Positions 14,891-63,180 of a stretch of 64,000 nucleotides of DNA are shown here, piece after piece. The notes beneath the pieces are model-generated. The model was not told the origin of the DNA, searched no databases, and was given only the letters and a program-made list of their open reading frames with translations. Location: positions 31,821 through 95,820 of IMG/VR virus record IMGVR_UViG_3300046820_002180; one strand, given 5' to 3'. This stretch comes from a virus. The stretch's first letter is position 1, and every line of letters begins with the position of its first letter. A program made the translations under genes and the position numbers.

Positions 14891-14911
14891 TATTAAAAAC
14901 CGAATAATAAT

Positions 14912-15275: not shown

Positions 15276-15281
15276 AATTTA

Positions 15282-15737
15282 GTGTACGAAAATATAAAAG
15301 GATTAAGACCGTATTTCTTTTCACTACGTGAAATTGATAATAACGTTAGTTTAGATATTAAATTTCCACTAAGTTGGAAGTATGAACAAATTATATCACA
15401 ATATAAGTTGGTAAAGGCAAAGGTACAAGATAAAAATGATAAGTTTCATTTGGTATCTTTGATTTCCACAGCAACGCAAGAAGGGTATGATGTGGTTTTT
15501 GCTTGCGCAAATGAGGTTGTTGTAATTAACAAAGAGGAAGAGGAAAAACAAAGACTATTCCATTCAAAAGTAAAAGAACTACAGGCGTTATTCCAAAATC
15601 AATCATTAGATAAATTAAAAGAAATAAGCTTTATTGATACTTATGGACAAGAAGATTCAACAGGGATTAGAGTGGTTGGAGAAAGAGCAGACGAAGGACT
15701 TGAAGGAGATACAGGAGCACAAGAAGAAGATGATTAA
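15282..15737 (+). CDS. Unknown protein, GTG start
   Basis: This 151-residue protein appears to start with GTG at 15282, since there is no nearby in-frame ATG. It has an N-terminal mixed domain (about 1-85) and a charged helical C-terminus ending in an acidic tail (GAQEEDD). The last 95 bases overlap the next gene in another frame. No family is recognised. Confidence 0.5.
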   Translation: MYENIKGLRPYFFSLREIDNNVSLDIKFPLSWKYEQIISQYKLVKAKVQDKNDKFHLVSLISTATQEGYDVVFACANEVVVINKEEEEKQRLFHSKVKELQALFQNQSLDKLKEISFIDTYGQEDSTGIRVVGERADEGLEGDTGAQEEDD

Positions 15738-15846
15738 GGAAATAACATCTTTCGATAAGTCCAAAATGTTCGAACCGAAACCAAAAAATAAAACATCGTT
15801 CTTTAAAAAAATACTAACGGTATTAGGTTATGGAAAAAAAAGGTAA
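15643..15846 (+). CDS. Small basic helical protein
   Basis: This 67-residue protein starts at the ATG at 15643; an in-frame TTG at 15634 is a less likely start. It is Lys-rich with helix-forming sequence (LEWLEKEQTKDLKEIQEHKKKMIKEI) and ends FFKKILTVLGYGKKR. It overlaps both neighbours out of frame, which is typical of compact phage operons. The function is unknown. Confidence 0.45.
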   Translation: MDKKIQQGLEWLEKEQTKDLKEIQEHKKKMIKEITSFDKSKMFEPKPKNKTSFFKKILTVLGYGKKR

Positions 15847-16063
15847 TTTTTTTAATCAAATTGCGATAATATCAGACTTATTAGAAAAAATAAATTTAGA
15901 ATCGGAATCAAGAACAGTAATCTTTGAATTAAAAGAAGATGAGTTCAATAGAATATTTAACTTAAACGTAGAGAAAACAAAACAAAAAATTAGTCCTGTC
16001 ACTAATAAATTCTCAATTAAAATCGGTGATGTAGATGTTGTGTTTAGTAAGAGTAATGTCTAA
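15830..16063 (+). CDS. Unknown 77-residue protein
   Basis: A small mixed protein (helix at about 8-20, then strands FELKEDEFNRIFN and FSIKIGDVDVVFS). It starts inside the previous gene by 17 bases and converges with the minus-strand gene, overlapping it by about 20 bases. No recognisable domain. Confidence 0.45.
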   Translation: MEKKGNFFNQIAIISDLLEKINLESESRTVIFELKEDEFNRIFNLNVEKTKQKISPVTNKFSIKIGDVDVVFSKSNV

Positions 16064-16682
16064 ACAGCTCGGTTCTTTTATAACCTTTAGCCACTAACAA
16101 ATCATATAACATCCTTCTTTGGTGTGTTGTAACGTCCTTAACGAAAATAAAATTATTTTTCTTTCTTTTCAACAAATCTTCACGAATAATATTAAATAAA
16201 CGAATCGAATCGTCTATATTTTTATTCCCAAACATTCTCACATCATTATCAACCTGAACAAATATTTTATTATTCAGTGTGAATACCTGTGCAACGTCAG
16301 TTACTTTTAAAACGTACTCAATCATCTCGTGATAACGAATTCTTTTTTTGTTGTCAAAGTCGTATATCAACTCCTCAATCCAATATGGGATTATCTCTTT
16401 AACTCTCTCTTTGTCGTTACTTAAAATAACTTCCTCGTTTCTACCTAATTCATCTTTAACATAGGTCTTTGTTGACCATCTAGTCTTAGGATAAATTAAC
16501 GCCAATTCATATTTGGTATTGGTTCTTTTTTTCCCCGAGTTGGTCTTTATGTACGGTGGTTTTTTCTGAGTTTTTAACTCCTGCCAAATTTCGGTGATTG
16601 TACTTCTCTTTGCAGATTTGTGTATTAGTTTTTTTCTCTTTCTATTACAAAAAAGTACTATGAAGTATTTGTAATTAATCAT
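16044..16682 (-). CDS. Unknown 212-residue minus-strand protein
   Basis: A basic protein with no recognised domain. It contains KKPPYIKTNSGKKRTNTKYELALIYP near the N-terminus and ends with an alpha/beta segment (NNFIFVKDVTTHQRRMLYDLLVAKGYKRTELF). Its ATG overlaps the stop codon of the upstream 50-residue ORF (ATGA), so the two form a minus-strand operon driven by the promoter at 16835-16866. It is the only minus-strand transcription unit before the sugar island. Confidence 0.55.
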   Translation of the reverse strand: MINYKYFIVLFCNRKRKKLIHKSAKRSTITEIWQELKTQKKPPYIKTNSGKKRTNTKYELALIYPKTRWSTKTYVKDELGRNEEVILSNDKERVKEIIPYWIEELIYDFDNKKRIRYHEMIEYVLKVTDVAQVFTLNNKIFVQVDNDVRMFGNKNIDDSIRLFNIIREDLLKRKKNNFIFVKDVTTHQRRMLYDLLVAKGYKRTELFRHYSY

Positions 16683-39174: not shown

Positions 39175-39383
39175 GCGAAACAACAAAAAAAGACAACCAA
39201 CAAGAAATGTTGGACCTTGAAAAAAAGAAAGTTAAAGCACTTGAAAAAATTGCAAACTCACTTGACGCATTAACCATTTGGTTTGAAGAAGTGGATAAAG
39301 AAGAATGGAGTAATAGAATTCAATATTACTTAACTGAATTCCATAATAAGTTTGTTAAGTCTAACGATGTCGAAAAAAAGTAA
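39171..39383 (+). CDS. Small charged helical protein
   Basis: This 70-residue, Lys/Glu-rich, probably helical protein starts by ATGA overlap with the previous gene and overlaps the next gene's true ATG (39367) by 17 bases. No domain is recognised. A small partner subunit or regulator is possible. Confidence 0.5.
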   Translation: MSETTKKDNQQEMLDLEKKKVKALEKIANSLDALTIWFEEVDKEEWSNRIQYYLTEFHNKFVKSNDVEKK

Positions 39384-40791
39384 AAAACTTGGTATAATAG
39401 TTCCGTATAGAAACAGACCGGAACAACTTGAATTATTCAAAAAGAGAATAACGAAATATCTTAATAGACATTCAATTCCTTTTGAATTAATCATCGTTAA
39501 TCAAGACGATGCGAAGTTGTTTAATAGAGGTATGCTTTTAAACATCGGATTCAAATATGCTGAGGAACTTGATTGTGATTATGTGGTATTTCACGATATA
39601 GATATGATACCACTTCACGTCGACTATTCGTATTCCGATTTTCCTGTCCATTTAGCGACAGGATTTAAAGAAAATAAAGACGAAAAACCAAGAGATATTT
39701 TTGATGAATATTTCGGAGGAGTTACATTATTCCCAATGAAAGATTTCAAGAAAATTAATGGTTATTCAAACAAGTATTGGGGTTGGGGATATGAGGATGA
39801 TGACTTAAGACTTCGTTGTATTAAGAAAGAAATTGACCTTGACGAGTTAGTAATTAAGAATGTCGGTATTGATGGACAAAAACTAAAATTCAATGGAGTT
39901 GATGCATACGTTGAATGTCCTAACTTAATTAACACAAATCAAATACTAACGATTTTCGTTTCATTCTTCCCCGATGAATTAACGTGTAATCACGAAAAAG
40001 AAACCGATGATTATACTATATTCTCGATACCTGGTTACGACTTCTCAATTTCTTACAATTCGTTCTCAAGATATAATGTTTGTTTCTTTGATAAAGACAA
40101 ACAAGCGTTATATGTTAACTCAAATATTAAACCGAATTATCAAACCAATATTTGTGTAACGATTGACCCAACAGAACGAATTATTAATGTTTATCAAGAC
40201 GGAGAATATATTGGTTCACCTGACACCTTTGGTAAGTTACACCCATACGCAAAAGAAAAACATTTTTACATAGGTGCTGCGAACCCAAAAAGAGAAGAGA
40301 AACAAAATTTTTTTAAAGGTTACTTCGACAAATTCGTTGTCTTTAATGACATACTAACTGAAGAAGAAATCTATAGAATTTCAAACCATCATAATGAAGG
40401 AATTATGAAAGATTTTGGAAAAAATAATAATATGGTGCTTTATTATAATTCTAAATTTATTGACGGATACAGATTGGCAGATTTGACTGGTTCACAAAAC
40501 TATGGTATGATAAGTAATTGTGAGATAGTTGACTTGGAATTGAATAAATCAAGAAAAGTAAAAGTACCACACAGAAAAGAATCGACATTTATTTCTTTAC
40601 CACACGAAGAGAATGGATTCTATCAAAATAAATGGAAACACCAAGCAACAAGGTGGAACCAATTAAGATTCTATAACGAAGTTTCAAAAAATGATGAACT
40701 ACTCGAAAACGACGGTTTATCGGATTTAGATTTTATTCTTTATGGAAAAATAGTAGAAAATAATATAACACACATTAACGTTGGAATATGA
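39367..40791 (+). CDS. GT7 galactosyltransferase-like enzyme with inserted LamG domain
   Basis: I take the ATG at 39367 (474 residues), not the TTG at 39352. The N-terminal half is a GT7/beta-1,4-galactosyltransferase domain: GIIVPYRNRPEQL, LFNRGMLLNIGF, HDIDM (Asp77/79, DxD), and YFGGV ... INGYSNKYWGWGYEDDDL (about 120-150). A LamG-like sandwich follows (about 171-345; VYQDGEYIG, FYIGAANP, GYFDKFVVFNDILTEEEIY). Residues about 395-474 then resume GT7 features: LPHEENGF as metal His and NQLRFYNEV ... DGLSDLDF ... HINVGI. The LamG therefore appears inserted in the catalytic domain. It probably adds a hexose to a glycan. Confidence 0.8.
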   Translation: MSKKSKKLGIIVPYRNRPEQLELFKKRITKYLNRHSIPFELIIVNQDDAKLFNRGMLLNIGFKYAEELDCDYVVFHDIDMIPLHVDYSYSDFPVHLATGFKENKDEKPRDIFDEYFGGVTLFPMKDFKKINGYSNKYWGWGYEDDDLRLRCIKKEIDLDELVIKNVGIDGQKLKFNGVDAYVECPNLINTNQILTIFVSFFPDELTCNHEKETDDYTIFSIPGYDFSISYNSFSRYNVCFFDKDKQALYVNSNIKPNYQTNICVTIDPTERIINVYQDGEYIGSPDTFGKLHPYAKEKHFYIGAANPKREEKQNFFKGYFDKFVVFNDILTEEEIYRISNHHNEGIMKDFGKNNNMVLYYNSKFIDGYRLADLTGSQNYGMISNCEIVDLELNKSRKVKVPHRKESTFISLPHEENGFYQNKWKHQATRWNQLRFYNEVSKNDELLENDGLSDLDFILYGKIVENNITHINVGI

Positions 40792-42233
40792 GTCACAAAT
40801 TAGGAATTTGTATCCCTTATCGAAATAGAAAGGAACACATTGAAAGATTAATCCCTCACTTATCAAAGTATCTAACAAGTCAAAATATTGACCACAAATT
40901 TTATGTCGGTCATCAGGTTGATGATAAACTTTTTAATAGAGGTGCAATGAAAAACATTGCCGCTCATTACGCGTTCAATGATGGATGTGATTACATTGCT
41001 TGGCACGATGTGGATATGTTGGTATATGATAAAGACGGTGTGTTCGCGGACTATTCATATCCTGAAGACAATCCGATGCACATTGCAACTAAGTTATCCA
41101 AATACAATTATGGATTGGGATATGACCAATACTTTGGTGGTGTTGTGTTATTCACGAAAGAACAAGCATATCAAACCAATGGTTACTCAAATGATTATTG
41201 GGATTGGGGACAAGAAGATGATGACTTATTTTGGAGATGTTATTTTGAAGGTTTAACCACTGGTAAAATCATTCAAAAATATGAAAGTAAAAAGTATGCT
41301 AAATTTAACGGAAAAACATCTGCGGTTGAAATACCAACAAGTAGAGAAATAAGTTCTTGTTTTACATCAGACCACACCATTTCAATATTGTTTAATGCCG
41401 AACAACAACAAGATGTGGTTCCTATTTGGTTAGTTGGTGACCAACAAAATAGATTCTTAGAATACCCAATATTAAGAAAAGAAGGTATGTGGACTTGGGG
41501 TGTTTCATTTAACAATTCAAGAGCAGTATCGATGGTTGTCTTCGATAGAAATAGCCAACATCATTATTTTTGGGCGAAACGATTTGAGAACTTATGGACT
41601 TGGGTAACAATTTCTTACTCACAAGAGGAAAATAAATTGTACCTTTATATTAATGATGAATTGGAGAGAAACGTTAGAGGTATTAGAGAAAAATTACCTT
41701 TTGATGCAAAATATGAAATTGCCAGAATGGATGCGGTAAAACCATTTGTTTTAGGTAATTGTCCTCACCAAAGAACATACTATAAAGGTAAAATCGGTGA
41801 AGTGAAAATTTTTAAAAAGTGTTTCAAACCAAATGAAATCAATCAAGTGTTTACAACCACAGAAGATGAAGATTTGGTTTTACATTATGACTTCGAAGAT
41901 GGGTTCACTAACAAGGTAAATGGTTCAATGGCAGTTGTTAAAGATTCAACGATTGGTGAAGAAGATATTGAAATTGTTAAAAACGTTTTACCATTTAGAA
42001 AAGAAGGTCAATTCTATTGTTTACCACACATCGATGAAGGTTTTGTGAATGGTAAATGGGCTAAAGGTGAAACTACCGCAAGAAATGAAAAACGATTTGT
42101 TACCGAAATGCAACAAAAGAAAATAAATTACAAAGACGAGGGTCTTAACAAAATAACCGAGGTAACTGAGATTGTTAATTTAGATGAGACGTTGTATCCT
42201 AAAACGATGTTCATCAATACAAAAATGAAATGA
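40788..42233 (+). CDS. Second GT7-LamG glycosyltransferase (tandem paralogue)
   Basis: This 481-residue paralogue overlaps the previous gene by ATGA. It shows GICIPYRNRKEHI, LFNRGAMKNIAAHYAF, AWHDVDM (about 73), YFGGVVLF, NGYSNDYWDWGQEDDDLFW (about 133-150). LamG-like strands follow (about 166-365: LWTWVTISYS, KLYLYINDELER, YYKGKIGEVKIFKKCFKPNEIN), with FDFEDG-like VLHYDFEDGF. The C-terminal GT7 part is LPHIDEGF and ARNEKRFVTEM ... DEGLNKI ... MFINTKM. Same insertion as its neighbour, with enough divergence to suggest a different donor or acceptor. Confidence 0.8.
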   Translation: MSHKLGICIPYRNRKEHIERLIPHLSKYLTSQNIDHKFYVGHQVDDKLFNRGAMKNIAAHYAFNDGCDYIAWHDVDMLVYDKDGVFADYSYPEDNPMHIATKLSKYNYGLGYDQYFGGVVLFTKEQAYQTNGYSNDYWDWGQEDDDLFWRCYFEGLTTGKIIQKYESKKYAKFNGKTSAVEIPTSREISSCFTSDHTISILFNAEQQQDVVPIWLVGDQQNRFLEYPILRKEGMWTWGVSFNNSRAVSMVVFDRNSQHHYFWAKRFENLWTWVTISYSQEENKLYLYINDELERNVRGIREKLPFDAKYEIARMDAVKPFVLGNCPHQRTYYKGKIGEVKIFKKCFKPNEINQVFTTTEDEDLVLHYDFEDGFTNKVNGSMAVVKDSTIGEEDIEIVKNVLPFRKEGQFYCLPHIDEGFVNGKWAKGETTARNEKRFVTEMQQKKINYKDEGLNKITEVTEIVNLDETLYPKTMFINTKMK

Positions 42234-45866: not shown

Positions 45867-47149
45867 TGAAATTAGTTTTTGAAGATATTGAAAACTTACA
45901 CAACTTTACAAGTTGTCCTGATGTAAATCCGTCAGGTATAAAGAGATTTACATATGCTCCGTTGATTAATGCAACGAATATGTATTTTGGGTTTACACAT
46001 AAAGAATCCTTTTTACAATTTTTGAAATTGAATAACGATGTGGAAAACTATGTTATTCCTGCAGCAGTTAATCACAGTCCTGAAGATTGGACAGGATACA
46101 CATCAAGGGTTAAGAGTTTGTTTGAATATCTTAACCCAAAATACTTGAGTGATTTAAGAAACAAGAAAGCATTACTTTTATTAGACCAAAGTTTCGAAGG
46201 GTACCAATCAAGATGGTTATGGGATTTTTTCCATACACATTGTAAGAAGTATAAAGTACCACCATCAAGTATTGTATATGTCACTGGTAATATGATTGCC
46301 GATGAGATTTATGATAAGTGGTGTATTGAAAATAAAATTAAAGAAAAATTAAAAGTAATCCCATACGCACATTTTGAATTAGATGTTGGGATGACCTGTT
46401 ACCATTTTGATAGAGAAGGAAAACTACCAGATTTCGATACTCATTTAGAATACAAGAAAAAGAACAAAAAGAATATTAAAAGTTTTTCTTGTTTGAATAA
46501 AAGAATAAGACCACATAGAGTTTGGTTTTATCGTTATATGTTTGATAATGATATTCTAAAAGATGGTTTGGTTAGTATGAATCAATTTCCTAAACATCAG
46601 TATCCATTTGAAGGTGAATATATGTCAGATGAGGTTGTTGATAAAATATATGAACCATTACCATTGTTAATATATGAGAAACCCAATAATGAATTTGACG
46701 ACAACTACTACATTAGGAGATTAAATGAACAGATTTGTTTAGATAGTTGGGTTAGTGTTGTAAGTGAAGCACATTGTGGTGATGGTGACGAAACGATGTT
46801 CTTAAGTGAAAAACTTTATAAACCGATTGCTTGTAGACATCCTTGGATGGTGATGGGTAATAAAGATAGTCTTGCAATGATGAAGAAAATGGGATATAAA
46901 ACATTCTCTGAATTCTTAGACGAAGACTACGATAGTTTACCAACACACGAGAGAATGAAAGCAATTATTGAAAGTGTTAAAAAGACAATTTCAGTTAAAA
47001 ATAAAATGGAATGGTTCAAGTCAATGAGAGAAGTTGTTGAACATAACCATTCAAATCTAATAAATAAATTATATCGATTACCTGATTCCTTTGTAGAATT
47101 TCAAAAGTATCATAATCAATATTTTAACATCAAACAGAATTTAATATGA
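45866..47149 (+). CDS. Member 1 of a three-paralogue GT-B-like family
   Basis: This 427-residue protein has FSCLNKRIRPHRVWFYRYMF (about 208-227) and a C-terminal signature SVVSEAHCGDGDETMFLSEKLYKPIACRHPW (about 290-320, split) followed by GYKTFSEFLDEDYD. The FLSEKLYKPI element recalls the donor-binding YLSEKxFxxL motif of GT10-like GT-B transferases. Two more copies lie at 52502 and 55996. It probably transfers a sugar, but this is inferred from a short motif and context. It begins at the stop of the radical SAM gene. Confidence 0.6.
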   Translation: MKLVFEDIENLHNFTSCPDVNPSGIKRFTYAPLINATNMYFGFTHKESFLQFLKLNNDVENYVIPAAVNHSPEDWTGYTSRVKSLFEYLNPKYLSDLRNKKALLLLDQSFEGYQSRWLWDFFHTHCKKYKVPPSSIVYVTGNMIADEIYDKWCIENKIKEKLKVIPYAHFELDVGMTCYHFDREGKLPDFDTHLEYKKKNKKNIKSFSCLNKRIRPHRVWFYRYMFDNDILKDGLVSMNQFPKHQYPFEGEYMSDEVVDKIYEPLPLLIYEKPNNEFDDNYYIRRLNEQICLDSWVSVVSEAHCGDGDETMFLSEKLYKPIACRHPWMVMGNKDSLAMMKKMGYKTFSEFLDEDYDSLPTHERMKAIIESVKKTISVKNKMEWFKSMREVVEHNHSNLINKLYRLPDSFVEFQKYHNQYFNIKQNLI

Positions 47150-47550
47150 GTGAAAGAAAATATCTACCAACATTGGCGGAATTAGTCGACAGGTTGAGTA
47201 TATCACAATTAAAAGAAGTTTTTATTACGGAGCACAAAGAAGAATATGGTCAGGAAATTAGTGACATTTTACACGACATTCAATTACTACTTGATGACAA
47301 TGATGGGAAAATTACCGCCGAAACTATTAGAGCTATTGTTGTTTTATCTCAGATGAATTTACATATTTGGCACAACGAATCAAACTATCGTAAAGGAATA
47401 AAAGAAGGTAATCAATTAGAACTAACACACGGATTGAATGGTATTAGAAATACCGCTAAAAACAAAATACAAGAAATTGTAGGTGGTAGAAAAGATTACA
47501 AAATTGATTGTTTAGCTGCGGAATTTAAAGATTGGGAAATTAGTTGGTAA
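47146..47550 (+). CDS. Conserved phage protein of unknown function
   Basis: This 134-residue helical protein starts by ATGA overlap with the previous gene. YLPTLAELVDRLSISQLKEVF, ILHDIQLLLDD, MNLHIWHNESNYRKG and LTHGLNGIRNTAKNKI form a pattern I have seen in other large-phage hypothetical proteins near sugar genes. No enzymatic motif stands out. Confidence 0.6.
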   Translation: MSERKYLPTLAELVDRLSISQLKEVFITEHKEEYGQEISDILHDIQLLLDDNDGKITAETIRAIVVLSQMNLHIWHNESNYRKGIKEGNQLELTHGLNGIRNTAKNKIQEIVGGRKDYKIDCLAAEFKDWEISW

Positions 47551-48377: not shown

Positions 48378-48405
48378 AAAAAAGGGACTTATGGTCCCTT
48401 TTTTT
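48378..48405. terminator. Bidirectional terminator between convergent operons
   Basis: A stem centred on GGGAC/GTCCC (48384-48388 with 48394-48398) extended by A-T pairs on both sides closes a 5-base loop. A-rich flank on one side and T-rich on the other let it end transcripts from both strands. It overlaps the stop codon of the minus-strand gene. Confidence 0.88.
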
Positions 48406-48952
48406 ATGCTTCGTAATATAATTCAGGATATTCTACAATAACGGATATTCCACCCTTTTCATATACCGTTTTGTAGGTCTCTTCAATATCTTTCCACGAC
48501 CTTAAATCATAGAATTTAATATTTGGACACATCATCTCATATGATGCTAAATAACTACCTCTATGTTGATGACCAGGGTCTAATGGTTTATCGGAACCCT
48601 TACCTAATCGAATAATCATATTAGGATTCCATTCGTGGTTACTCATCAGTTTAATCTTATCTACGTGATTTACCAATTGATTAGTTGCACAAATTAAAAA
48701 ATCCCATCGAGGATAAAATGTAATAACAGTTTTACCAGCCATTGACATACCTAAACTCATTCCCATTTGTGATTCTTCCATAACAGGAAGTTCAATTAAC
48801 TTATCTTTTGGAACTTCTCCGATAGTTGTACTCATTGGATTACCGTGCCAAAGGATTTGCTGACCCAAGAAGACTGTATCTTCTTGTTGACCAAGGTAAG
48901 TCATTGATTTAGTTAAAGCGTCCTTATATGGGGTGTATTGTGGTGAACTCAT
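48404..48952 (-). CDS. E1 beta-like thiamine-diphosphate enzyme subunit (Pyr domain)
   Basis: This 182-residue protein corresponds to the N-terminal pyrimidine-binding domain of E1 beta or transketolase-type enzymes. ELPVMEESQMGMSLGMSMAGKTVITFYPRWDFL (split) holds the Glu that activates thiamine diphosphate (about 64-95). GQQILWHGNPMSTT and DKPLDPGHQHRG fit the surrounding loops. The C-terminal transketolase_C domain is missing, so the protein is about half the usual length. Its partner is the E1 alpha-like gene at 53770. Together they could form a ThDP site acting on a 2-keto sugar or keto acid. Confidence 0.72.
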   Translation of the reverse strand: MSSPQYTPYKDALTKSMTYLGQQEDTVFLGQQILWHGNPMSTTIGEVPKDKLIELPVMEESQMGMSLGMSMAGKTVITFYPRWDFLICATNQLVNHVDKIKLMSNHEWNPNMIIRLGKGSDKPLDPGHQHRGSYLASYEMMCPNIKFYDLRSWKDIEETYKTVYEKGGISVIVEYPELYYEA

Positions 48953-49758
48953 AATGATTCTATTTTTTTGATTACAGCATCTGCAATTATTCTATGACAT
49001 TTTTTGGATGGGTGAGAATCTTTCGGTGGATGTTCTCCTAATTCGTCAAAATCATCTCTAACGGTTAAACCATTATTAAGTCTCATCATATAATCGATAT
49101 TTGTATATTCAGTACCGTTATAATTTAGATAGACCATTCTGTCGTGTAAATAAGGGTCTTCCTTAACATACTTAACATAGTCATCTTGCCAATTAACAAT
49201 TATACATTTGATACCCTTACTCTCCAAAAGTTCAAACATTTCTTTAATTTTTTTAACTTGTTGTTTACAATGTTCAACATACCATTCAGGAAAACCACCA
49301 ATACCATTTTCTTCCATCCACTCAAAGAAGATTCTTTGGATTCCTTGAGATGAACCAATCCAATTCATTTTGTGGTCATTTCCCTTATGTGTAAATGTAA
49401 ACGAACATCTACCTGGTTGACTGGTTTGAAAAACTGCATATCCTATCTCTTCATATGAAAATTTCTCCTCAAGTAAGTGTGTTAATCCGTTTCTATTGGT
49501 AAAAATGTAATCTAAAAACAATAACGATTCATCCTCACTACCACCATTTTCTTTTTTAACAATTTCAAATGTTTCAAAATGATTTGCAACTAATCTTGGA
49601 AATCTTAAAGTTGCCATAAAACGTTTGTGAGCATCCGTTACTAATTTTTGTTCATATTGTTCGGGTGCCGGTTCCTTAACAGTCTCCATTTTTGAATAAT
49701 AATAAAGACCTTGACCCCAAGTAAATGAACAACCAGCAAATACTATTCCCTTTTTCAT
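48949..49758 (-). CDS. SGNH/GDSL-like hydrolase
   Basis: This 269-residue protein begins MKKGIVFAGCSFTWGQGLYY, with the block I Ser in GCSFTWG. It ends with DSHPSKKCHRIIADAVIKKI (block V Asp-x-His, about 250-252). The middle is IIVNWQDDYVKYV. This layout matches SGNH hydrolases that remove or add acyl groups on glycans. It overlaps both neighbours by 1-4 bases. A relative lies at 57260. Confidence 0.65.
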   Translation of the reverse strand: MKKGIVFAGCSFTWGQGLYYYSKMETVKEPAPEQYEQKLVTDAHKRFMATLRFPRLVANHFETFEIVKKENGGSEDESLLFLDYIFTNRNGLTHLLEEKFSYEEIGYAVFQTSQPGRCSFTFTHKGNDHKMNWIGSSQGIQRIFFEWMEENGIGGFPEWYVEHCKQQVKKIKEMFELLESKGIKCIIVNWQDDYVKYVKEDPYLHDRMVYLNYNGTEYTNIDYMMRLNNGLTVRDDFDELGEHPPKDSHPSKKCHRIIADAVIKKIESL

Positions 49759-50732
49759 TAATTAAATTCGTTTTTGTTTTCGTTATACCATTCATAGGCT
49801 TTTTCTAAACCTTCAGATAATGAAGTTTTAGCCTCCCAACCTAATTTATCTTTTATTTTATTTGAATCAATTTTTCTTGTTGGAATCATTGAAGGTTTCC
49901 CACTAATAAACTCAGTAGGGGCATCATAGTTTGCAATTTTCTTCATCTCATCTAAAACCTCAAGTACCGAATAAACTTTATTTGAACCAACGTTATATAC
50001 TTGGAACATTTCAGTTTCATTTTCCATCACAACTTGTAACGACTCAACAAAATCTTCAACATATAGTAAGTCTCTTAATTCAGTACCATCACCCCAAACA
50101 GGAATTGGATTTAATTGGTCGGCAACTTTACGAATAGTTGCAGGTGTTACGTGACACTTATTGAAATCGTACTTATCGTGAGGGCCAAACAAATTGGCTG
50201 GTCTGATGACCGTGCATTTCATTGTTCGTGGTAAGTATTTTGCATACAATTCACATTGAACCTCAGCGTATCGTTTCATCCAACCAACGGGGAAATAAAC
50301 GGGGTAAGGTTCATCAAATAAGAAATCAGTCTCAACTACAGGTTCATCACCTTTAGGTGGATACACAGTGTTCGATGAAATAAATACATAATGTTTAACG
50401 TTATTTCTCCAAGCAGCATCAATTAAAAAATTATTCATTGCAACATTTGGAGTTACGTGAGCTAATGGGTCATTGACAGTATCAACAGCGTTTGAAGTAG
50501 ATGCGGCACAATGAAAAACAACATCAACATCTTTGGTAATAGTTTTACAACCCTCTTGTGTTTGTAAATCAGAATACCAATACTCTACATCCATATGTTT
50601 TATTCTTGGTTCTCTAGCGTGTAAAGAAACTCTTATGTTGTTGTATCCTTCGGACACTAATCTATTTGTTAAGTTTTGCCCAACCAAACCAGAACCACCG
50701 GTTATTAAAATTTTTGAATTTTTATTTATCAT
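49758..50732 (-). CDS. SDR epimerase, GDP-fucose-synthase-like
   Basis: This 324-residue extended SDR has the NAD(P) motif GGSGLVGQNL (about 12-21), FHCAAST, VFISSNTVYPP and PANLFGPHDKYDF, which follow GDP-L-fucose synthase closely. The active-site Lys is in PVGWMKRYAEVQ, but the residue four positions earlier, normally Tyr, is Val. The nearest Tyr is seven positions before the Lys. It may make a deoxy or epimerised NDP-sugar with changed chemistry, or be only partly active. Confidence 0.8.
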   Translation of the reverse strand: MINKNSKILITGGSGLVGQNLTNRLVSEGYNNIRVSLHAREPRIKHMDVEYWYSDLQTQEGCKTITKDVDVVFHCAASTSNAVDTVNDPLAHVTPNVAMNNFLIDAAWRNNVKHYVFISSNTVYPPKGDEPVVETDFLFDEPYPVYFPVGWMKRYAEVQCELYAKYLPRTMKCTVIRPANLFGPHDKYDFNKCHVTPATIRKVADQLNPIPVWGDGTELRDLLYVEDFVESLQVVMENETEMFQVYNVGSNKVYSVLEVLDEMKKIANYDAPTEFISGKPSMIPTRKIDSNKIKDKLGWEAKTSLSEGLEKAYEWYNENKNEFN

Positions 50733-52501
50733 ATTAAACTTTTTTTAATTTTTTTTACATCATTAGTTTGTGGTATATGAAATGGGTTACCATAACATAC
50801 ATCGGTATCTGGTTCCCACACTTCTTCTATTTTTTCAGTACCATTATATCTTGCAGGTGGTGAATACGGTCTAACTTGAATGAAATTAATGTATGTAAAT
50901 CTTTTAAAATCATTCTTAACCATTTCAACTGCGTGATTTGAATTATTTTTTGAGAAATCTAACATTGCAAAATTTAAATGGATTGGAATTACTTCATCAT
51001 AATACCCCTTATCTTGTAATATTAATTTTCCTCCACCATCAATATAGTCTTTTTCGTGTGATAAGTAAATTAATACCACACAATATCTATCAGGATTTTG
51101 ACCATCAATATGAGGTTCAATAAAGTCACCATTTTCATAAATGGTTATACCGTCATTATGCCCAATATTCCATTCTTTTACTTCAGGATATATCTTATGA
51201 ACAAATCTTGATACCTTATCTCTAAAATAGAATATATCATCATTGAAATTTCCATCACTATCCCTCAACTCCCACCAACGTTGAACAATGTCCCAACCTT
51301 TTTCGGCAACGAATTTTTCTCTTTCTTCTATCTCATCTGCAGGTATTGTCCTAACGTAATCAAATCCTTTTTCGGAGTAATCATTTGGTACTCTAAATTC
51401 AAAACGATATCCATAACCTTTCTTATCTTCAGATTTTTTTCTAATATTTTCTAATCTTTTTAGATAATCATCCCACTCGTGTTTTTTGATGAATTCTTTA
51501 ACTTTACCAACATAAAATCCTTTTTCAAGAAACTCATCAATGTCCATATCCAATTCAAGTTTACCATAATGTTTTTCATAGTAACTATATGTTCTTCTAA
51601 GTGCTTCTTTAAATCCTACAAAAGGTAATAGTTGGTAACCGTTCTGAAGACTCGTATCCATTTGTCTACGCATATCTCCATTTGGTTTAGTTTTATCCCA
51701 TTTAATGGTTAAATTTTTACCACTAATTTTAATAACCTCTTCAATCATTGATTGAATCGTTATTGTTTCGCCAGAACCTAAATTAACAACATCATTTACC
51801 CTATTCTTATAACAATTTAAAATTGCAACTGCAACATCATTAGCATAAATAAAATCTCTAACAGGTGTACCATCCCCCCAAGCTTCAATCTCACCACCAT
51901 CCTCAGCTTCATATACTTTCTTAATGATACTTGAGATTACTGTACCATTACCACTCCAATCATCATATTCACCAAATATGTTAGCGGGTCTAACAATGGT
52001 CCATTTCTTATATCCATATTGTTTTCTATACGCACCTACCAATAACTCACCAATTCTTTTTGACCAAGCAGGAAACCAATCATTTTCAGAAGGTAATGTC
52101 TTCCACACATCAGTCTCTAAGAATTTCTCAGCAGGAGAGTAAACACCAACAGAACTTACAAAAACTAACCAAACGTTATTTTTGGCACATTGGTGAATTA
52201 TTTCAGTATTGATTTTTTGTGATGGATATAGAAAGTCCACCGGTTGAGTTTTAGCTTTTAATGGTGAACCCTTAACACCGAAGCAGTTGAATACTGCATC
52301 TGGTTTTTCTTCCTCAAAAAGTTTTGTGACATTCTCCTCATTCATAAGGTCTAACTCATAAAACTTAAACCTATCAGATTCTGGTAAATGGTCCGATTTT
52401 ACTTTGTCGACACCAATAACTAAATGGTTTCTCATAATCGATTCCTTAACCAAATGAACACCGACTAAACCTGAACAACCTGTAATTAAAATTTTTTTCA
52501 T
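50729..52501 (-). CDS. Fusion of SDR epimerase and 2OG-Fe(II) oxygenase
   Basis: This 590-residue fusion has an N-terminal extended SDR (about 1-300): GCSGLVGVHLVKE, VFVSSVGVYSP, PAWSKRIGELL, RPANIFGEYD, with Pro where the YxxxK Tyr is expected. A helical linker follows (about 310-390). The C-terminal prolyl-4-hydroxylase-like domain has PHIDG (His about 464, Asp about 466), a distal His in SNHAVEMV (about 523) and the 2OG Arg in FKRFTYINF. One polypeptide could reduce or epimerise and then hydroxylate a sugar nucleotide. Confidence 0.78.
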   Translation of the reverse strand: MKKILITGCSGLVGVHLVKESIMRNHLVIGVDKVKSDHLPESDRFKFYELDLMNEENVTKLFEEEKPDAVFNCFGVKGSPLKAKTQPVDFLYPSQKINTEIIHQCAKNNVWLVFVSSVGVYSPAEKFLETDVWKTLPSENDWFPAWSKRIGELLVGAYRKQYGYKKWTIVRPANIFGEYDDWSGNGTVISSIIKKVYEAEDGGEIEAWGDGTPVRDFIYANDVAVAILNCYKNRVNDVVNLGSGETITIQSMIEEVIKISGKNLTIKWDKTKPNGDMRRQMDTSLQNGYQLLPFVGFKEALRRTYSYYEKHYGKLELDMDIDEFLEKGFYVGKVKEFIKKHEWDDYLKRLENIRKKSEDKKGYGYRFEFRVPNDYSEKGFDYVRTIPADEIEEREKFVAEKGWDIVQRWWELRDSDGNFNDDIFYFRDKVSRFVHKIYPEVKEWNIGHNDGITIYENGDFIEPHIDGQNPDRYCVVLIYLSHEKDYIDGGGKLILQDKGYYDEVIPIHLNFAMLDFSKNNSNHAVEMVKNDFKRFTYINFIQVRPYSPPARYNGTEKIEEVWEPDTDVCYGNPFHIPQTNDVKKIKKSLI

Positions 52502-53785
52502 TTATTTTTTCTTATTTTCGATTAGTGATGTGAAAAATTCCACATCATCTTTGTTATTTAATAATTCTATCACTAACTTTTTATTATTCTCAAATCTATC
52601 TTTTAGATTGATATAATTTGAAATGAAATTATCTTTATTTTTATATATCCTTTTTACCTCATCAAACAGTTTAAATAATCGTTTTCTTTGGTCCAATTCA
52701 GAATCGTATGAATGGTCTAATATATCTTCAAACACATCAAACCCATAAACATTTTTAACCGTTTTTACGTGGTCCATACTTGCAACATAAAGTGGATATT
52801 GATTAAAGAAAAGAGGTTTGAATGTTTTCTCACTTAAATGGACAACATTATCTCTCTTAAAACAAGATTCCGTAGTTATGTTAACATATGAGTTCTCATA
52901 TGTTTGCTTCTCATAAACTCGATTCCATTCAATGTGAAACGGAAGACTCTTTACGTGACTATCCCAATCCTTGTCAAACCAATCAATATTATCCTCATAT
53001 CTACTTTTTTTAATATCAATCTCTTCAAAAAAATCAATCTCAGATTTCATTTTTTGAATTTCCTTTTCAGTGAATAATTCGTGATAAAAAGTGGTTATGG
53101 TTGTATGTTTCATATCCATTTTATGATTCCACCCCATCACCAAAGACCAATCAACCTCTTGTAATAATTTGTTCTTTTTAAGTAAAACTAAAAGCGCGTA
53201 TCTATGAACTTTTGGAGTCCTATTATGTGAAACAAAAAATTCAGATTGTTTATCAGTTATGAAATCAGTATCGTGCATATCTAATTCCTTAGCAACTTTG
53301 ATTGGTAAGAATTTAATTGTATGAACGTTCAAACTTAAATTGTTATCCTCTTTGTACTTCTTTAAATTGTAATTGTTGTTGATAACATATATTTGTTTTG
53401 GGTCTATTCCTTTATCTATTACCCATTTCTCAATTCCAATAACGGTTTCTTCGGTTTCCACCTCGTGTTCATTTAAAAAAATAACATAGAGGTTTGGATT
53501 TTCTTTCAGATGTTTAATTACCTTGGTTGGTAATGGTAATATGTTATGTGCTTTTAGTGCGTGACCAATCTCGTGAATATGACCGATGATATAATAGAAA
53601 TTTTCATCAGGATAATTCTTAACCTCAGTTATCCTAAATCTTTTGAAATTTTTAAATTCATAAAAATTCAATAAACCATCGAATCTTCTGAAATTATTTG
53701 CGCCAAATTCTTTCTCACCATTAATATTTGGATGAGTTGCATTGTGATGCCAATCGTCATAAACTAAATTTAAAAAATTACCCAT
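52502..53785 (-). CDS. Member 2 of the three-paralogue GT-B-like family
   Basis: This 427-residue protein shares FFVSHNRTPKVHRYALLVLL (about 195-214) and a C-terminal VNITTESCFKRDNVVHLSEKTFKPLFF (about 300-326) followed by YGFDVFEDILDHSYDSELDQRKR with the copies at 45866 and 55996. It is the most divergent copy. Its role is inferred as a glycosyltransferase from the SEKxxKP motif and the neighbourhood. It ends directly at the next gene's start. Confidence 0.55.
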   Translation of the reverse strand: MGNFLNLVYDDWHHNATHPNINGEKEFGANNFRRFDGLLNFYEFKNFKRFRITEVKNYPDENFYYIIGHIHEIGHALKAHNILPLPTKVIKHLKENPNLYVIFLNEHEVETEETVIGIEKWVIDKGIDPKQIYVINNNYNLKKYKEDNNLSLNVHTIKFLPIKVAKELDMHDTDFITDKQSEFFVSHNRTPKVHRYALLVLLKKNKLLQEVDWSLVMGWNHKMDMKHTTITTFYHELFTEKEIQKMKSEIDFFEEIDIKKSRYEDNIDWFDKDWDSHVKSLPFHIEWNRVYEKQTYENSYVNITTESCFKRDNVVHLSEKTFKPLFFNQYPLYVASMDHVKTVKNVYGFDVFEDILDHSYDSELDQRKRLFKLFDEVKRIYKNKDNFISNYINLKDRFENNKKLVIELLNNKDDVEFFTSLIENKKK

Positions 53786-54402
53786 TTACCTGTTCCGTAG
53801 TGCGGCCATTGTTTAATATAATTATACCAAATTACACCCTCAGGCGCTTCAGTTTTTACTTTCCAAGTTTCAATTGTTGGAGTATTAGTTGATACACCAT
53901 TATCCTCAACCACAAATTGAATTGGGAGGTCAAAGTTCTTGGCATATTTGTAGTTTTCCATAAAACCACCAGTCTCGAAAGCCATATCACCAACGAAACA
54001 CCACACCTTATCAGTACTACCTTGTTGTTTCAAAGCCATTGCAACACCAACAGCAATTGGTATAGTACCACCAACAATTGCTGATGAATAAAACTTCTCC
54101 TCTTTATTCACAATTGTAATTGACCTACCTGCTAATATCTCCTCTTCTAACCATTCAGAAGGTACACCTTTTAATAATGCGTGATAATGAGACCTCCAAG
54201 TTGAGAAAACCCAATCTGTTGTTTTAACTCTTTTGAAAATTTCAATTAATTCATCCTCATTACCACCACTTAAATGGATTGGTCCACGAACTCTACCAGC
54301 TTCCCAATGGTCGGCCATTTTTCTTTCAAACTGTATAAGTCCTTCTTTATCCCATAACATCTCCCTAACAATTGGTAGATGGTCATCTAAATTTTTTATC
54401 AT
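53770..54402 (-). CDS. E1 alpha-like thiamine-diphosphate enzyme subunit (PP domain)
   Basis: This 210-residue protein matches the pyrophosphate-binding half of E1 alpha subunits. STWRSHYHALLKGV, SSAIVGGTIPIAVGVAMALK and GDMAFETGGFMENYKYAKNFDLPIQFVVEDN (split; about 140-170) form the GDx-N motif for Mg and diphosphate, with Met in place of the usual Gly. It is shorter than the usual 330-360 residues. Its Pyr-domain partner is at 48404, five genes away in the same operon. It overlaps the next gene by ATGA. Confidence 0.75.
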   Translation of the reverse strand: MIKNLDDHLPIVREMLWDKEGLIQFERKMADHWEAGRVRGPIHLSGGNEDELIEIFKRVKTTDWVFSTWRSHYHALLKGVPSEWLEEEILAGRSITIVNKEEKFYSSAIVGGTIPIAVGVAMALKQQGSTDKVWCFVGDMAFETGGFMENYKYAKNFDLPIQFVVEDNGVSTNTPTIETWKVKTEAPEGVIWYNYIKQWPHYGTGKWVIF

Positions 54403-54944
54403 CTGTCTCTTTTTTGTAATATTGGTTTATCTGTCGGCCATTCCATTTGATACTCAGGGTCATTCCATTTAACTACACCTTGTTCATTTGCATCTACATA
54501 ACCATCTTTATAGAATAGATTATAGTGAAACATACAATCAGTTAGTGCGTAATGTCCGTTTGCAAAACCTGGTGGAACTAATACTTGGTTTCTATCTTTC
54601 TCAGTAATCATAAATGATTCCCAATCACCATATGTCGGTGATGATGGTCTCATATCTAATACAACCAAGTAAATGTCACCAACAGCCGCCTGAACTAATT
54701 TCCAAGTTTTAGTATCGTAATGTAATCCTCTTAGAACACCCTTATATGATTTTGAAAATCTTCCGTGAATTGAGATTTCACTTTTATCATAATGAATGTG
54801 TCTCATCACAGGATGTTCTTCACTATGAAATGTTGTAAAAATTTCACCCCTATATTCTCTATAAATCGAAGGAGTGAAAATTGGTACTTGATAACCAAAA
54901 ACTTTTGATGGAGTTTCAACAAACTCATCCCATTTATTACTCAT
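54399..54944 (-). CDS. RmlC-like dTDP-sugar 3,5-epimerase
   Basis: This 181-residue cupin has the RmlC pattern. SFSKSYKGVLRGLHYDTKTWKLVQAAVGDIYLVVLDMR (split) includes the catalytic His in RGLHY (about 72). VPPGFANGHYALTDCMFHYNLFY is the second conserved block. It would invert C3 and C5 of a dTDP-4-keto-hexose. The N-terminus carries an extra 45 residues. It sits between the SDR at 54946 and the E1 alpha gene. Confidence 0.82.
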   Translation of the reverse strand: MSNKWDEFVETPSKVFGYQVPIFTPSIYREYRGEIFTTFHSEEHPVMRHIHYDKSEISIHGRFSKSYKGVLRGLHYDTKTWKLVQAAVGDIYLVVLDMRPSSPTYGDWESFMITEKDRNQVLVPPGFANGHYALTDCMFHYNLFYKDGYVDANEQGVVKWNDPEYQMEWPTDKPILQKRDR

Positions 54945-54945
54945 A

Positions 54946-55914
54946 TTATGTATTGTTTGCGTATCCTAATGGGAATCCATTTCTAAATTCCGATGTCATT
55001 TTTGGTATTAGTACTTGGTATGTTTTCATTAGTTCTTTAATACCATCATCCAAAGACCACTTTGGTTTCCATCCTGTCTTTTCAATCTTTTCATTTGAAA
55101 CTATGTAATCTCTTTTGTCAGGGTCTTCATAGAAATCTGAGTAAGTAATTGCAAAATCAGGAATGTATAATTTTATTTTTTCTAATAATTCTTGTTTACT
55201 TAAGTTAGCATCACTTAACCCGACATTGTAAACGTTCTCTTTCATTGTTTCATAATTTTCGAGAGCGAATGTAAACACATCACCAACATCTTGAATATGA
55301 ATGAAGTTACGTTTGAAATGTTTTTCAAATACAACAATGTATTTGTCGGTCATTGCTTTATAAACAAACTCATTTACCAACAAATCAGTTCTCATTCTTG
55401 GAGAAGAACCAAATACGGTTGCTAATCTAAAACAAGTTGCATTGGTGTAATTAAGTAAATGTCTTTCCGCTGCACATTTAGTTTCACCATATACCGATAT
55501 TGGATTTAATGGTGATTCTTCAGTACAAAATTTATCATCTTTACCAACACCATATCCACTATTTGTATTTGGATAGATAATCATTTGATTTGGACTAATG
55601 AAGTTCATCAAATTAATGATTTGATTATAGTTGATTTGTGTTGCTAATTCAGGGTCTTTTTTACAAGCAGGGAACCCGACAATTGCTGCTAATGGAATTA
55701 TAACATCGTGAGATTTAACTTCCCTTTCGAACAGGGTTAGATTTCTAACGTCACCATAAATGAAGTTATAATTTGGATTGTAAGTAAATTGGAGTGGGGA
55801 AATCTGATTGAACAATAACGTGTCAATTACAGTCACTTTATGACCCAAATCGAGTAGTTTTTTTGTTATCACTGAACCTAAGTATCCAGCACCTCCTGTG
55901 ATTAAAATTTTCAT
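54946..55914 (-). CDS. SDR NAD-dependent epimerase/dehydratase
   Basis: I take the ATG at 55914 (322 residues), because an upstream extension would begin with TTG inside the promoter. MKILITGGAGYLGSVITKKLL is the Rossmann motif. IIYPNTNSGYG and ISVYGETKCAAERH give the Ser/Thr and YxxxK residues, canonical here and unlike the other two SDRs of this operon. RLATVFGSSPRMR follows. It is probably a UDP- or GDP-sugar epimerase or dehydratase and is the first gene of the minus-strand operon. Confidence 0.85.
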   Translation of the reverse strand: MKILITGGAGYLGSVITKKLLDLGHKVTVIDTLLFNQISPLQFTYNPNYNFIYGDVRNLTLFEREVKSHDVIIPLAAIVGFPACKKDPELATQINYNQIINLMNFISPNQMIIYPNTNSGYGVGKDDKFCTEESPLNPISVYGETKCAAERHLLNYTNATCFRLATVFGSSPRMRTDLLVNEFVYKAMTDKYIVVFEKHFKRNFIHIQDVGDVFTFALENYETMKENVYNVGLSDANLSKQELLEKIKLYIPDFAITYSDFYEDPDKRDYIVSNEKIEKTGWKPKWSLDDGIKELMKTYQVLIPKMTSEFRNGFPLGYANNT

Positions 55915-59031: not shown

Positions 59032-60669
59032 ATGTATATTATTGGAGTATCCGCATATTATCACGATTCTTCTGCTTGTCTTTTTAAAGATGGGGAATTA
59101 GTCTTTGCTTGTGAGGAAGAAAAGTTCACTGGAATCAAACACGATAGTTCATTTCCTGAAAAGACTATAGAATACATTTTTAACCACTTCAATTTAAAAA
59201 AATCGGACATCGAGGCGGTTTGTTATTATGAGAATCCAAAACTCAGGTTCAAAAGAAGGAAGTCGTTTTTCACTTCATTAAAAACTAACATCAAAGTTTG
59301 GTGGAATTTAAGAAAGATATCTGATAAGATACATTATACCTCACATCATATGTCACATATGGCTTATTCGTATTTATCATCGAATTTTGATAAGGCGGTT
59401 ATAGTATCTGTTGACGGTGTTGGTGAAACCTCAACAGTTTCATTCGGTAAAGGTATCAATGGGGTGGTTCACAATATTAAGACAATCGAATACCCTGATT
59501 CATTAGGGTTATACTATTCAGCAATGACTGCCTTTCTTGGTTTTAAACCAAACGAAGGTGAGTATAAAGTAATGGGTTTGGCTGCATATGGTGACCCCGA
59601 AAGATTTAGAAGTAAAGTTGCTCAGTTAATTAATTTTGATGGATATAAATTATCCTGTAATATGGATTGTTTCATATGGAATAAATCCGATGACACAATG
59701 TTTAATTACAAATTAGCTGATTTATTAGGTATTGAAAATAGATTACCAAATACCCCTCTTACTGAAGACCACAAAGATTTAGCGGCGTCAGTACAAGAAA
59801 GATATGAAGAGTTGTTTTTCCAATTAATAAAAGATGCGAAATTGTTTTATCATTCAGATAACATTTGTATTGGGGGAGGTTGTGCGTATAATGGATGTGC
59901 TAATGGTAAAATAATTAAAAATGGAATTTTTAAAAAGGTATGGGTACCACCAGCACCTTCTGATGCGGGTTCTTGTATTGGTTCTTGTTTAGATTATTTA
60001 TCTAAAGTTAAAGGTCTTAATGTAAGAGTTACACCAACACCATTTTTAGGTCCTTCTTATAGTCATAATGAAATTCAAAATACATTAAACAAATACGGAC
60101 ATAAAATATTTTATAGAAAACACACAAAAGAAAGATTATATAAAAGGACTGCACAATATCTAAGTATGGGGTTAGTTGTTGGATGGTTTCAAGATAAGAT
60201 TGAATTTGGTGCAAGGGCTTTAGGTAATAGGTCAATATTAGCGAATCCAACAGTGCCAGATATGCAAGAAAGAATTAATAAAGTAATTAAAAAAAGAGAA
60301 GGGTTTAGACCATTTGCACCTATGGTGACGTTCGAACGTCAAAGTGAATTCTTTGATTCAAAAGAATATATCCCATATATGAATCAAGTGGTTAATGTGT
60401 TGAAAAAATATAGAGATAAATTACCGGCAGTTACTCACGTTGATGGTAGTGCGAGAGTACAATCTGTAACACCACACAACCCAATTTACTCATTATTAAA
60501 AGAATTTGAAGAAAGAACTGATTACCCAATATTATTGAATACATCTTTTAATGTTAAAGATAAAACAATGGTTTTAACACCGGAAGATGCTATATTAACA
60601 TATTTGGACACAGCTATGGACATATTGGTGATTGGTGATTATATTATCTATAAAAACGGAAACAAATGA
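59032..60669 (+). CDS. Carbamoyltransferase (NodU/CmcH/TobZ family)
   Basis: This 545-residue protein has the two-part layout of O-carbamoyltransferases. The N-terminal YrdC-independent Kae1-like half begins MYIIGVSAYYHDSSACLF and has SHHMSHMAYSYL (metal His) and VSVDGVGETSTVSFGKG. The C-terminal half has ARALGNRSILANP and REGFRPFAPMV, then PILLNTSFNVKDKTMVLTPEDA. It transfers a carbamoyl group from carbamoyl phosphate via an adenylate to a hydroxyl, probably of a sugar here. Length is normal. Confidence 0.92.
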   Translation: MYIIGVSAYYHDSSACLFKDGELVFACEEEKFTGIKHDSSFPEKTIEYIFNHFNLKKSDIEAVCYYENPKLRFKRRKSFFTSLKTNIKVWWNLRKISDKIHYTSHHMSHMAYSYLSSNFDKAVIVSVDGVGETSTVSFGKGINGVVHNIKTIEYPDSLGLYYSAMTAFLGFKPNEGEYKVMGLAAYGDPERFRSKVAQLINFDGYKLSCNMDCFIWNKSDDTMFNYKLADLLGIENRLPNTPLTEDHKDLAASVQERYEELFFQLIKDAKLFYHSDNICIGGGCAYNGCANGKIIKNGIFKKVWVPPAPSDAGSCIGSCLDYLSKVKGLNVRVTPTPFLGPSYSHNEIQNTLNKYGHKIFYRKHTKERLYKRTAQYLSMGLVVGWFQDKIEFGARALGNRSILANPTVPDMQERINKVIKKREGFRPFAPMVTFERQSEFFDSKEYIPYMNQVVNVLKKYRDKLPAVTHVDGSARVQSVTPHNPIYSLLKEFEERTDYPILLNTSFNVKDKTMVLTPEDAILTYLDTAMDILVIGDYIIYKNGNK

Positions 60670-62386: not shown

Positions 62387-62821
62387 ATGATTTATTGGTT
62401 TACAGGGCAACCTGGTGCAGGAAAAACAACCTTAGCTAAAAAGTTAGTTGAGTATTTAAATGTTGGAAACACCATTCACATTGATGGTGATGATTTAAGA
62501 GACATCTTTAAAAATAAAGATTATTCTGAAAATGGAAGACGTGCAAATATTCAAAAGGCTATGGATATTGCATATTTTCTAAATGAAAAAGGATACAATG
62601 TGGTGGCTTCATTAGTGTCACCATATAAAGATTTAAGGGACGACCTTAAAGGTAAATCCGATGCAATTGAAATATACGTTCATACAACTGACATTAGAGG
62701 TAGGGAAAACTTTCACGTTAAGGACTACGAACCCCCGACCGAAAATTATATATCAATTAACACAACTGATACCGAATTAATGGTATCGTACACGGAATTA
62801 ATCAATAAATTATTTTTATGA
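62387..62821 (+). CDS. cysC: Adenylylsulfate kinase-like protein
   Basis: This 144-residue P-loop kinase begins MIYWFTGQPGAGKTTLAKKL (Walker A 7-15). It has TIHIDGDDLRDIF, ENGRRANIQKAMDIAYFLNEKGYNVVASLVSPYKDLR (split) and EIYVHTT, as in APS kinases that make PAPS. It is about 30 residues shorter than CysC at the C-terminus (VKDYEPPTENYI retained), so a different kinase substrate remains possible. It precedes a nucleotidyltransferase and DUF2061 gene. Confidence 0.8.
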   Translation: MIYWFTGQPGAGKTTLAKKLVEYLNVGNTIHIDGDDLRDIFKNKDYSENGRRANIQKAMDIAYFLNEKGYNVVASLVSPYKDLRDDLKGKSDAIEIYVHTTDIRGRENFHVKDYEPPTENYISINTTDTELMVSYTELINKLFL

Positions 62822-63180
62822 GTAAAAAGTATGCACTGTACATCGGAAGATGGCAGAATTGGCACAAAGGACACGAATGGTTAATTAGACAACAATTAGA
62901 CCAAGGTAAAAATGTATGGGTGGCAATTAGAGATGTTGAAGTTGATGAAAACAATCCCAAAACGGCACGAGAAGTGTTTGAAGAATTAATTAAAGAACCT
63001 TTCTTTAATGACAATTTCGATAAGTTATTATTATCAATTATTCCTGACATTGAATCGGTGAATTATGGTAGAGGAGTTGGGTATGAAGTAATCTATCACG
63101 AACCACCTGCAGATGTTGCGGCAATAAGTGGTACTAAAATCCGTAATGGAGAAATAAACAACGATGGTAGTAGAACGTAA
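62818..63180 (+). CDS. HxGH nucleotidyltransferase
   Basis: This 120-residue protein has YALYIGRWQNWHKGHEWLI (His16-Lys-Gly-His19), the nucleotide-binding motif of the cytidylyltransferase/NMNAT superfamily, and DVAAISGTKIRNGEI, matching the ISxTxIR motif. It overlaps the kinase by ATGA, so the two likely act on the same substrate. It could make an activated sulfate, sugar or alcohol precursor. Confidence 0.78.
   Translation: MSKKYALYIGRWQNWHKGHEWLIRQQLDQGKNVWVAIRDVEVDENNPKTAREVFEELIKEPFFNDNFDKLLLSIIPDIESVNYGRGVGYEVIYHEPPADVAAISGTKIRNGEINNDGSRT

Follow-up and report, generated by a model that had tools for sequence, protein, structure and literature searches.

Minimal split E1-type enzyme genes in a phage sugar-nucleotide operon and a candidate role in sugar branching

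What would a phage do with an enzyme of the pyruvate dehydrogenase E1 type, encoded in pieces among genes for sugar nucleotides? The question is raised by a 64,000-nucleotide stretch of viral DNA (hereafter the window) that corresponds to bases 31,821–95,820 of the 159,820-base IMG/VR virus record IMGVR_UViG_3300046820_002180. The window encodes two short proteins, here called E1-alpha and E1-beta, which together resemble a thiamine diphosphate (ThDP) enzyme. The analysis described below gives an even chance, in our judgement, that the pair is a minimal split E1-type carboligase that decarboxylates a 2-oxo acid, probably pyruvate, and places the acyl unit on the C4 ketone of a nucleotide sugar.

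The two subunits and their distribution

The two genes lie at the following positions.

53770–54402, minus strand: E1-alpha-like minimal PP (diphosphate-binding) subunit, 210 residues, Pfam E1_dh
48404–48952, minus strand: E1-beta-like minimal Pyr (pyrimidine-binding) subunit, 182 residues, Pfam Transket_pyr

Both Pfam matches were above the cut-off (5e-16 for E1-alpha and 2e-6 for E1-beta), bearing out a preliminary description of this locus that had placed the halves of a ThDP site on separate short proteins. Scores against curated pyruvate dehydrogenase (PDH) families were below the cut-offs: 91 of 394 bits (5e-26) for E1-alpha with the NCBIfam PDH E1 alpha family, and 34 of 321 bits for E1-beta. 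Both sequence and fold comparisons with solved structures placed the two proteins nearest to PDH and branched-chain E1 subunits. The AlphaFold2 model of E1-alpha (predicted local distance difference test, pLDDT, 94.9) had human PDH E1-alpha among its best Foldseek matches (E 3e-12), and that of E1-beta (pLDDT 92.2) matched PDH E1-beta best (template modeling score of 0.86 on the query).

Residue roles were assigned by alignment with PDH, TktA and DXS and from general knowledge of ThDP enzymes. The ThDP/Mg motif GD(M)...N of E1-alpha corresponds to G138, D139 and N168, and its active-site histidines to H43, H72 and H201; D139, N168 and the three histidines were unvarying in all 60 of the 60 minimal E1-alpha relatives. 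In E1-beta, the catalytic glutamate E59 and the active-site histidine H130, which align with E411/H473 of TktA and E370/H431 of DXS, were likewise unvarying (57/57 minimal relatives).

Alignment to the full-length E1 subunits of a bacterial locus showed that E1-alpha gives no match beyond residue 175 of 210 (template residues 15–187 of 334), stops ∼40 residues past the ThDP-binding Asn and is missing the C-terminal part, and that E1-beta covers only the first 180 of 326 residues, stops at the end of the Pyr domain and is missing the whole C-terminal domain (dimerisation and E2 docking). The subunits are thus trimmed of their usual extra domains, as had been proposed, and the C-terminal third domain of transketolase is absent from the pair as well. 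The best explanation is that E1-alpha and E1-beta form the two halves of one ThDP active site, that is, a minimal, split enzyme of the E1 (alpha-keto-acid dehydrogenase 2-like) type, for which we infer complex formation of the split form. The pair gives an idea of the size to which an E1-type ThDP enzyme may be reduced.

The pairing of E1-alpha with E1-beta is far beyond chance, because 257 of 263 pattern matches in IMG/VR encode relatives, 85 examined loci carry both subunits (on the same strand in 83 and adjacent in 17), and phrog_34187 (PHROG 34187, function listed as unknown) holds both halves as one family of 405 positions. The fused form, with alpha and beta in one protein, was found in Synechococcus phage S-SM2, Prochlorococcus phage P-TIM68 and one Prochlorococcus contig. 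The module, carried by large aquatic phages, is present in more than 250 IMG/VR contigs and in some bacteria and archaea. The present analysis offers a testable function for an abundant unnamed phage family, PHROG 34187 with its split relatives. Bacterial members are rare in the phylum of bacterial genome G003, since few further ones, almost none, were found in 289 sampled genomes of that phylum.

A deeper second subgroup of minimal E1 proteins (L090, L092, L093, L004, L002, L003 and L091) includes cyanophages. Its genes are either split beside radical SAM genes or fused beside Zn-alcohol dehydrogenase and HldE/HldD-like genes, and its members may catalyze a different reaction from that of the window type. 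The proteins annotated as phosphoheptose isomerase in L002 (Synechococcus phage S-SM2) and L003 (P-TIM68) look by eye like small HAD-type phosphatases, not GmhA, and are likely misannotated. Another locus, L193, has a second E1-alpha/beta pair of about full length (263 and 303 residues, 14646–16333), with a related pair in L173. Genes of the Cj1427-like, RmlC-like and B12-type radical SAM kinds lie close to the L193 pair, whose beta chain apparently has Asp at the column of the catalytic Glu.

The operon and its GDP-heptose setting

Both subunit genes belong to a block of eight genes that runs from 55914 down to 48404, all on the minus strand. It can be regarded as one operon-like unit because of the shared strand and the close spacing, with gaps of 0–1 bp or overlaps of 1–16 bp. 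The order is Cj1427-like short-chain dehydrogenase/reductase (SDR), RmlC-like epimerase, E1-alpha, 427-residue protein, fusion of an SDR with a 2-oxoglutarate (2OG)-Fe(II) oxygenase, second SDR, SGNH-like protein and E1-beta, so that four genes separate E1-alpha from E1-beta. The other six members are as follows.

54946–55914, minus strand: operon gene 1, Cj1427-like SDR, with 6vo6/6vo8 as the single PDB match at E < 1e-50
54399–54944, minus strand: operon gene 2, RmlC-like cupin, with Campylobacter GDP-4-keto-heptose 3- and 3,5-epimerases as PDB matches
52502–53785, minus strand: 427-residue protein, putative glycosyltransferase, no match in Pfam or PHROGs
50729–52501, minus strand: GDP-fucose-synthase-like SDR (reductase/epimerase) fused to a 2OG-Fe(II) oxygenase domain, by NCBIfam and Pfam
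49758–50732, minus strand: second GDP-fucose-synthase-like SDR, NCBIfam GDP-L-fucose synthase at 5e-42, below the cut-off
48949–49758, minus strand: SGNH/GDSL-like protein of 269 residues with a GCSFTWG motif, recognized by eye

The match of gene 1 to 6vo6/6vo8 reached 8e-115 over 302 residues; we take 6vo6 to be Cj1427 of Campylobacter, a GDP-heptose C4-dehydrogenase. For its start codon, the ATG at 55914 is a likelier choice than the TTG (55956) listed by the open reading frame (ORF) finder. For gene 2, the best PDB matches included 8dcl, 8dco, 7m14 and 8db5 (E 1e-33 to 1e-35), compared with 1e-23 for dTDP-rhamnose epimerases. The GDP-heptose C4-dehydrogenase function and the Campylobacter heptose-modifying enzymes with their order have been described (PMC10680097). 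With a Cj1427-like SDR and a Cj1430-like epimerase both inside one operon, the neighboring “epimerases” point to predicted 4-oxidation and 3,5-epimerisation of GDP-heptose. In the bacterial loci L088 and L089, E1 adjoins a dehydrogenase of the same type together with an HddA-type heptose kinase and an HddC-type nucleotidyltransferase, and the phage records of L067 and L077 encode an HddA-like kinase away from E1 (the L077-record kinase scored 339 bits to the HddA model, with a cut-off of 600). The rest of the window's record contained no homologues of HddA, HddC, GmhB or HldE (tblastn, six stretches) and no SIS_2, GHMP or NTP_transferase domains.

Among the remaining operon genes, the 427-residue protein has related copies elsewhere in the glycan region, and its family is present in 32 loci. 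The fusion protein matched NCBIfam GDP-L-fucose synthase at 2e-41 (below the cut-off) and Pfam 2OG-FeII_Oxy_3 at 1e-6; in other loci the oxygenase is a separate gene or is missing. The second SDR matched GDP-fucose synthetase (2e-31) and 7m13 (8e-22) in the PDB and is a candidate reductase of the 4-keto group or of an acyl branch. The SGNH-like gene overlaps the start of E1-beta by 4 bp and has homologues in 32 loci; the protein gave no confident match in Pfam or PHROGs.

The operon is part of a long glycan region downstream of tail-fibre-like genes, with glycosyltransferase, radical-SAM-like, carbamoyltransferase and sugar-nucleotide genes. The baseplate protein of this phage is most similar to those of Flavobacterium and Microcystis myoviruses, at less than 30% identity, which makes a Bacteroidota host possible. 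Elsewhere in the window, all on the plus strand, we noted a 134-residue ORF (47146–47550) without a Pfam match, whose homologues occur in 48 clustered loci and very often lie near a Cj1427-like gene, E1 or a heptose kinase; a complete carbamoyltransferase of the glycan region with both Pfam domains (59032–60669; homologues in 37 loci); two tandem glycosyltransferase-like ORFs with C-terminal extensions (39352–42233), the first of which is a fusion of GT7-type domains with a laminin-G/concanavalin-like domain; and small overlapping genes resembling adenylyl-sulfate kinase and nicotinamide-nucleotide adenylyltransferase (62387–63180).

Candidate reactions of the E1 pair

The function that we favor draws on comparative genomics and residue conservation, from which we infer the donor, acceptor, product and use. 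The pair would decarboxylate a 2-oxo acid, probably pyruvate, to give an acyl carbanion on ThDP, and this carbanion would add to the ketone at C4 of a nucleotide-activated sugar, yielding a C4-branched sugar. By analogy with the bacterial enzymes AviB1/AviB2 and YerE, considered below, the acceptor would be a 4-keto GDP-heptose. The GDP-fucose-synthase-like SDRs could then reduce the acyl branch or a leftover ketone, and glycosyltransferases of the same region may build the product into glycans of the surface or the virion. The wider proposal that phages and a few bacteria make a hitherto undescribed C4-branched higher sugar, composed of GDP-heptose and an acyl unit, by means of a small Pyr/PP carboligase on separate genes has, in our view, a somewhat less than even chance of being right. 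Of the C–C bond chemistry on a sugar suggested in the preliminary description, a branched-chain product is thus the version best supported by context and residues, and a chain-shortened sugar found no support.

The loci vary in the ketosugar enzymes that accompany E1. In L034 and L036, the cassette epi1-rmlC-E1a-E1b (C4-dehydrogenase, epimerase, E1-alpha and E1-beta) stands alone amid unrelated genes, and these four genes, without any further classed family, also occur in L039 and L043. The order in L030 is rmlC-E1a-4,6-dehydratase (GMD)-E1b, with the same four families in L033 and L059. In further loci, the 4,6-dehydratase is accompanied by a DegT-family protein; these proteins match RfbH at up to 3e-83, and His replaces the Lys that binds pyridoxal phosphate (PLP) in 17/17 aligned sequences, as in C3-dehydratases. 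Among dereplicated loci, the C4-dehydrogenase was present in 37, the 4,6-dehydratase in 13 and both in none (naive hypergeometric 1.4e-8 for loci that are not independent), and the E1-alpha tree requires at least 4–5 changes between the two states. A ketone-forming or ketosugar-processing enzyme was found in 44 of the 45 E1-beta-seeded loci with long flanks (3 of these 44 show only the C3-dehydratase within reach), yet 19 of 59 C4-dehydrogenase loci lack E1, an asymmetry that would suit an E1 that consumes a 4-keto sugar. One type of GDP-fucose-synthase-like SDR was present in 7 of the 19 E1-lacking dehydrogenase loci versus 0 of the 40 E1-positive ones.

Several observations weigh against a C4-branching carboligase. 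All 77 dereplicated C4-dehydrogenase loci have E1 (56), an HldE-type heptose kinase (16) or both (5), with too few independent changes for an independence-corrected test, and this pattern would be explained no less well by a role in supplying heptose. All of the 4-keto-forming enzymes could act on GDP-heptose, in which case gene content would not separate an E1 that follows a 4-keto sugar from one that follows heptose, and the two SDRs of the operon may do no more than reduce the C4 ketone, so that no ketone would remain for branching. The E1-beta proteins of the second subgroup (cyanophages, L090, L092 and L093) mostly have Arg/Lys at the column of TktA R520; therefore, the chemistry need not be common to all members. 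No known branched heptose is tied to these genes.

In the supply role, which is the main rival reading, the pair would be a dedicated minimal transketolase-like enzyme that makes sedoheptulose 7-phosphate or another higher sugar phosphate, a GDP-heptose precursor, and so raises the heptose supply of the phage. We regard this as unlikely, although beyond the E1-or-kinase pattern and the second-subgroup Arg/Lys it can draw on E1 genes that neighbor HddA and HddC in the bacterial loci L087, L088 and L089 or HldE/GmhB genes in cyanophages and Prochlorococcus L091, and on two E1-bearing phages that encode a GHMP kinase elsewhere, of which the one checked is HddA-like. However, the phosphate-binding residues of transketolase and DXS are missing from window-type E1-beta: the sequence alignment has K/F/H/I, R/K and Y/W at the columns of TktA R358, H461 and R520, and R398 and R478 of DXS are likewise not kept in a direct alignment, the DXS profile comparison being weak. 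The pair is, moreover, closest to PDH E1 rather than to transketolase in sequence and fold. Of 16 phage records, none had GmhA (SIS_2 search) or an NTP_transferase-type nucleotidyltransferase and two had a GHMP kinase, so that in most of them a lone first-step supply enzyme would do little. Cells, furthermore, already possess transketolase.

The same closeness to PDH E1 would be expected of an authentic 2-oxoacid dehydrogenase E1 acting with host E2 to boost acetyl-CoA as a central-metabolism auxiliary gene, which we consider very improbable. The scores are far under the curated PDH cut-offs, and sugar-nucleotide enzymes surround the E1 genes in nearly all loci. A dehydrogenase role is unlikely because the E2-docking domain of E1-beta is missing and no E2 gene (PF00198) was found in 16 phage records of 133–336 kb, a search with positive controls that covers phage rather than host E2. 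Central metabolism as the principal role was rejected on account of the lack of a phage E2, the missing domain and the gene context. Another ThDP-dependent glycan reaction, in which the acyl unit goes to C3, C6 or a non-sugar substituent or comes from a longer 2-oxo acid, seems distinctly unlikely. Two E1-beta residues, the invariant R82 and the almost invariant D84, do not occur in the compared PDH-type, TktA and DXS sequences and hint at a special substrate, and the YerE-like enzymes ErwE and MMAR_2332 take longer hydroxylated donors; against this, nothing positive favors any particular alternative acceptor, and the E1-type branching enzymes described to date make C2 branches only.

If the C4-branching carboligase is the correct reading, viruses, too, would use for their glycans a chemistry whose described examples otherwise come from bacterial O-antigens and antibiotic clusters. 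In a literature search with most subscription journals outside its reach, no phage E1-type sugar enzymes turned up, nor did the truncation, the occurrence in phages or the link with heptose. The fold and the general reaction are already known.

Comparison with known systems

Bacteria are already known to use E1-alpha/beta pairs for the branching of 4-ketosugars, in the avilamycin, paulomycin and kibdelomycin systems. The E1-type pairs AviB1/B2, Plm8/9 (= Pau11/12) and KbDH-alpha/beta have been linked to reactions in which pyruvate donates an acetyl group to a 4-ketosugar or a ketone analogue, and KbDH is reported to couple ketones in vitro (PMC12247030, PMC4802897, PMC4425429). As judged from their descriptions, they resemble the phage system in having separate E1 genes in deoxysugar clusters with a 4-ketosugar source. 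However, those enzymes are near full length (325 residues for Pau11 and 345 for Pau12), bacterial and antibiotic-making, whereas the phage proteins (210 and 182 residues) are without C-terminal domains and lie among GDP-heptose enzymes. The yersiniose A synthase YerE has the same reaction type as predicted for the phage pair, the transfer of an acyl unit from pyruvate to a 4-keto NDP-sugar, but this single-chain flavoprotein belongs to the decarboxylase superfamily, a ThDP superfamily other than that of the phage pair. The RfbH-like 3-dehydratase of some phage-type clusters recalls the 3,6-dideoxyhexose route.

The Campylobacter jejuni GDP-heptose route comprises Cj1427, Cj1430, Cj1428, a C4,6-dehydratase and a C3-dehydratase. 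Phage genes 1 and 2 match its C4-dehydrogenase and its C3/C3,5-epimerases, and the phage loci in which the dehydrogenase is replaced match the Campylobacter 4,6-dehydratase and PLP-dependent 3-dehydratase types (PMC10680097). As described, that route ends in a C4-reductase and no ThDP enzyme was found in it, unlike the phage operon.

With the E1 of pyruvate and branched-chain 2-oxoacid dehydrogenases, the phage pair has in common the fold, the ThDP motif and the catalytic Glu and His; it differs in having no C-terminal domains and no E2, in its low scores and in its sugar-operon context. Some of the viral “pyruvate dehydrogenase” or “transketolase” genes in virome surveys (e.g. PMC4053976) may likewise be sugar-nucleotide enzymes rather than central-carbon genes. 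PHROG 34187, the “transketolase central region-containing protein” of cyanophages, belongs to the same family as the phage pair, with its halves fused, but its cyanophage members form a separate subgroup with other neighbors, namely Zn-alcohol dehydrogenase and HldE-like genes.

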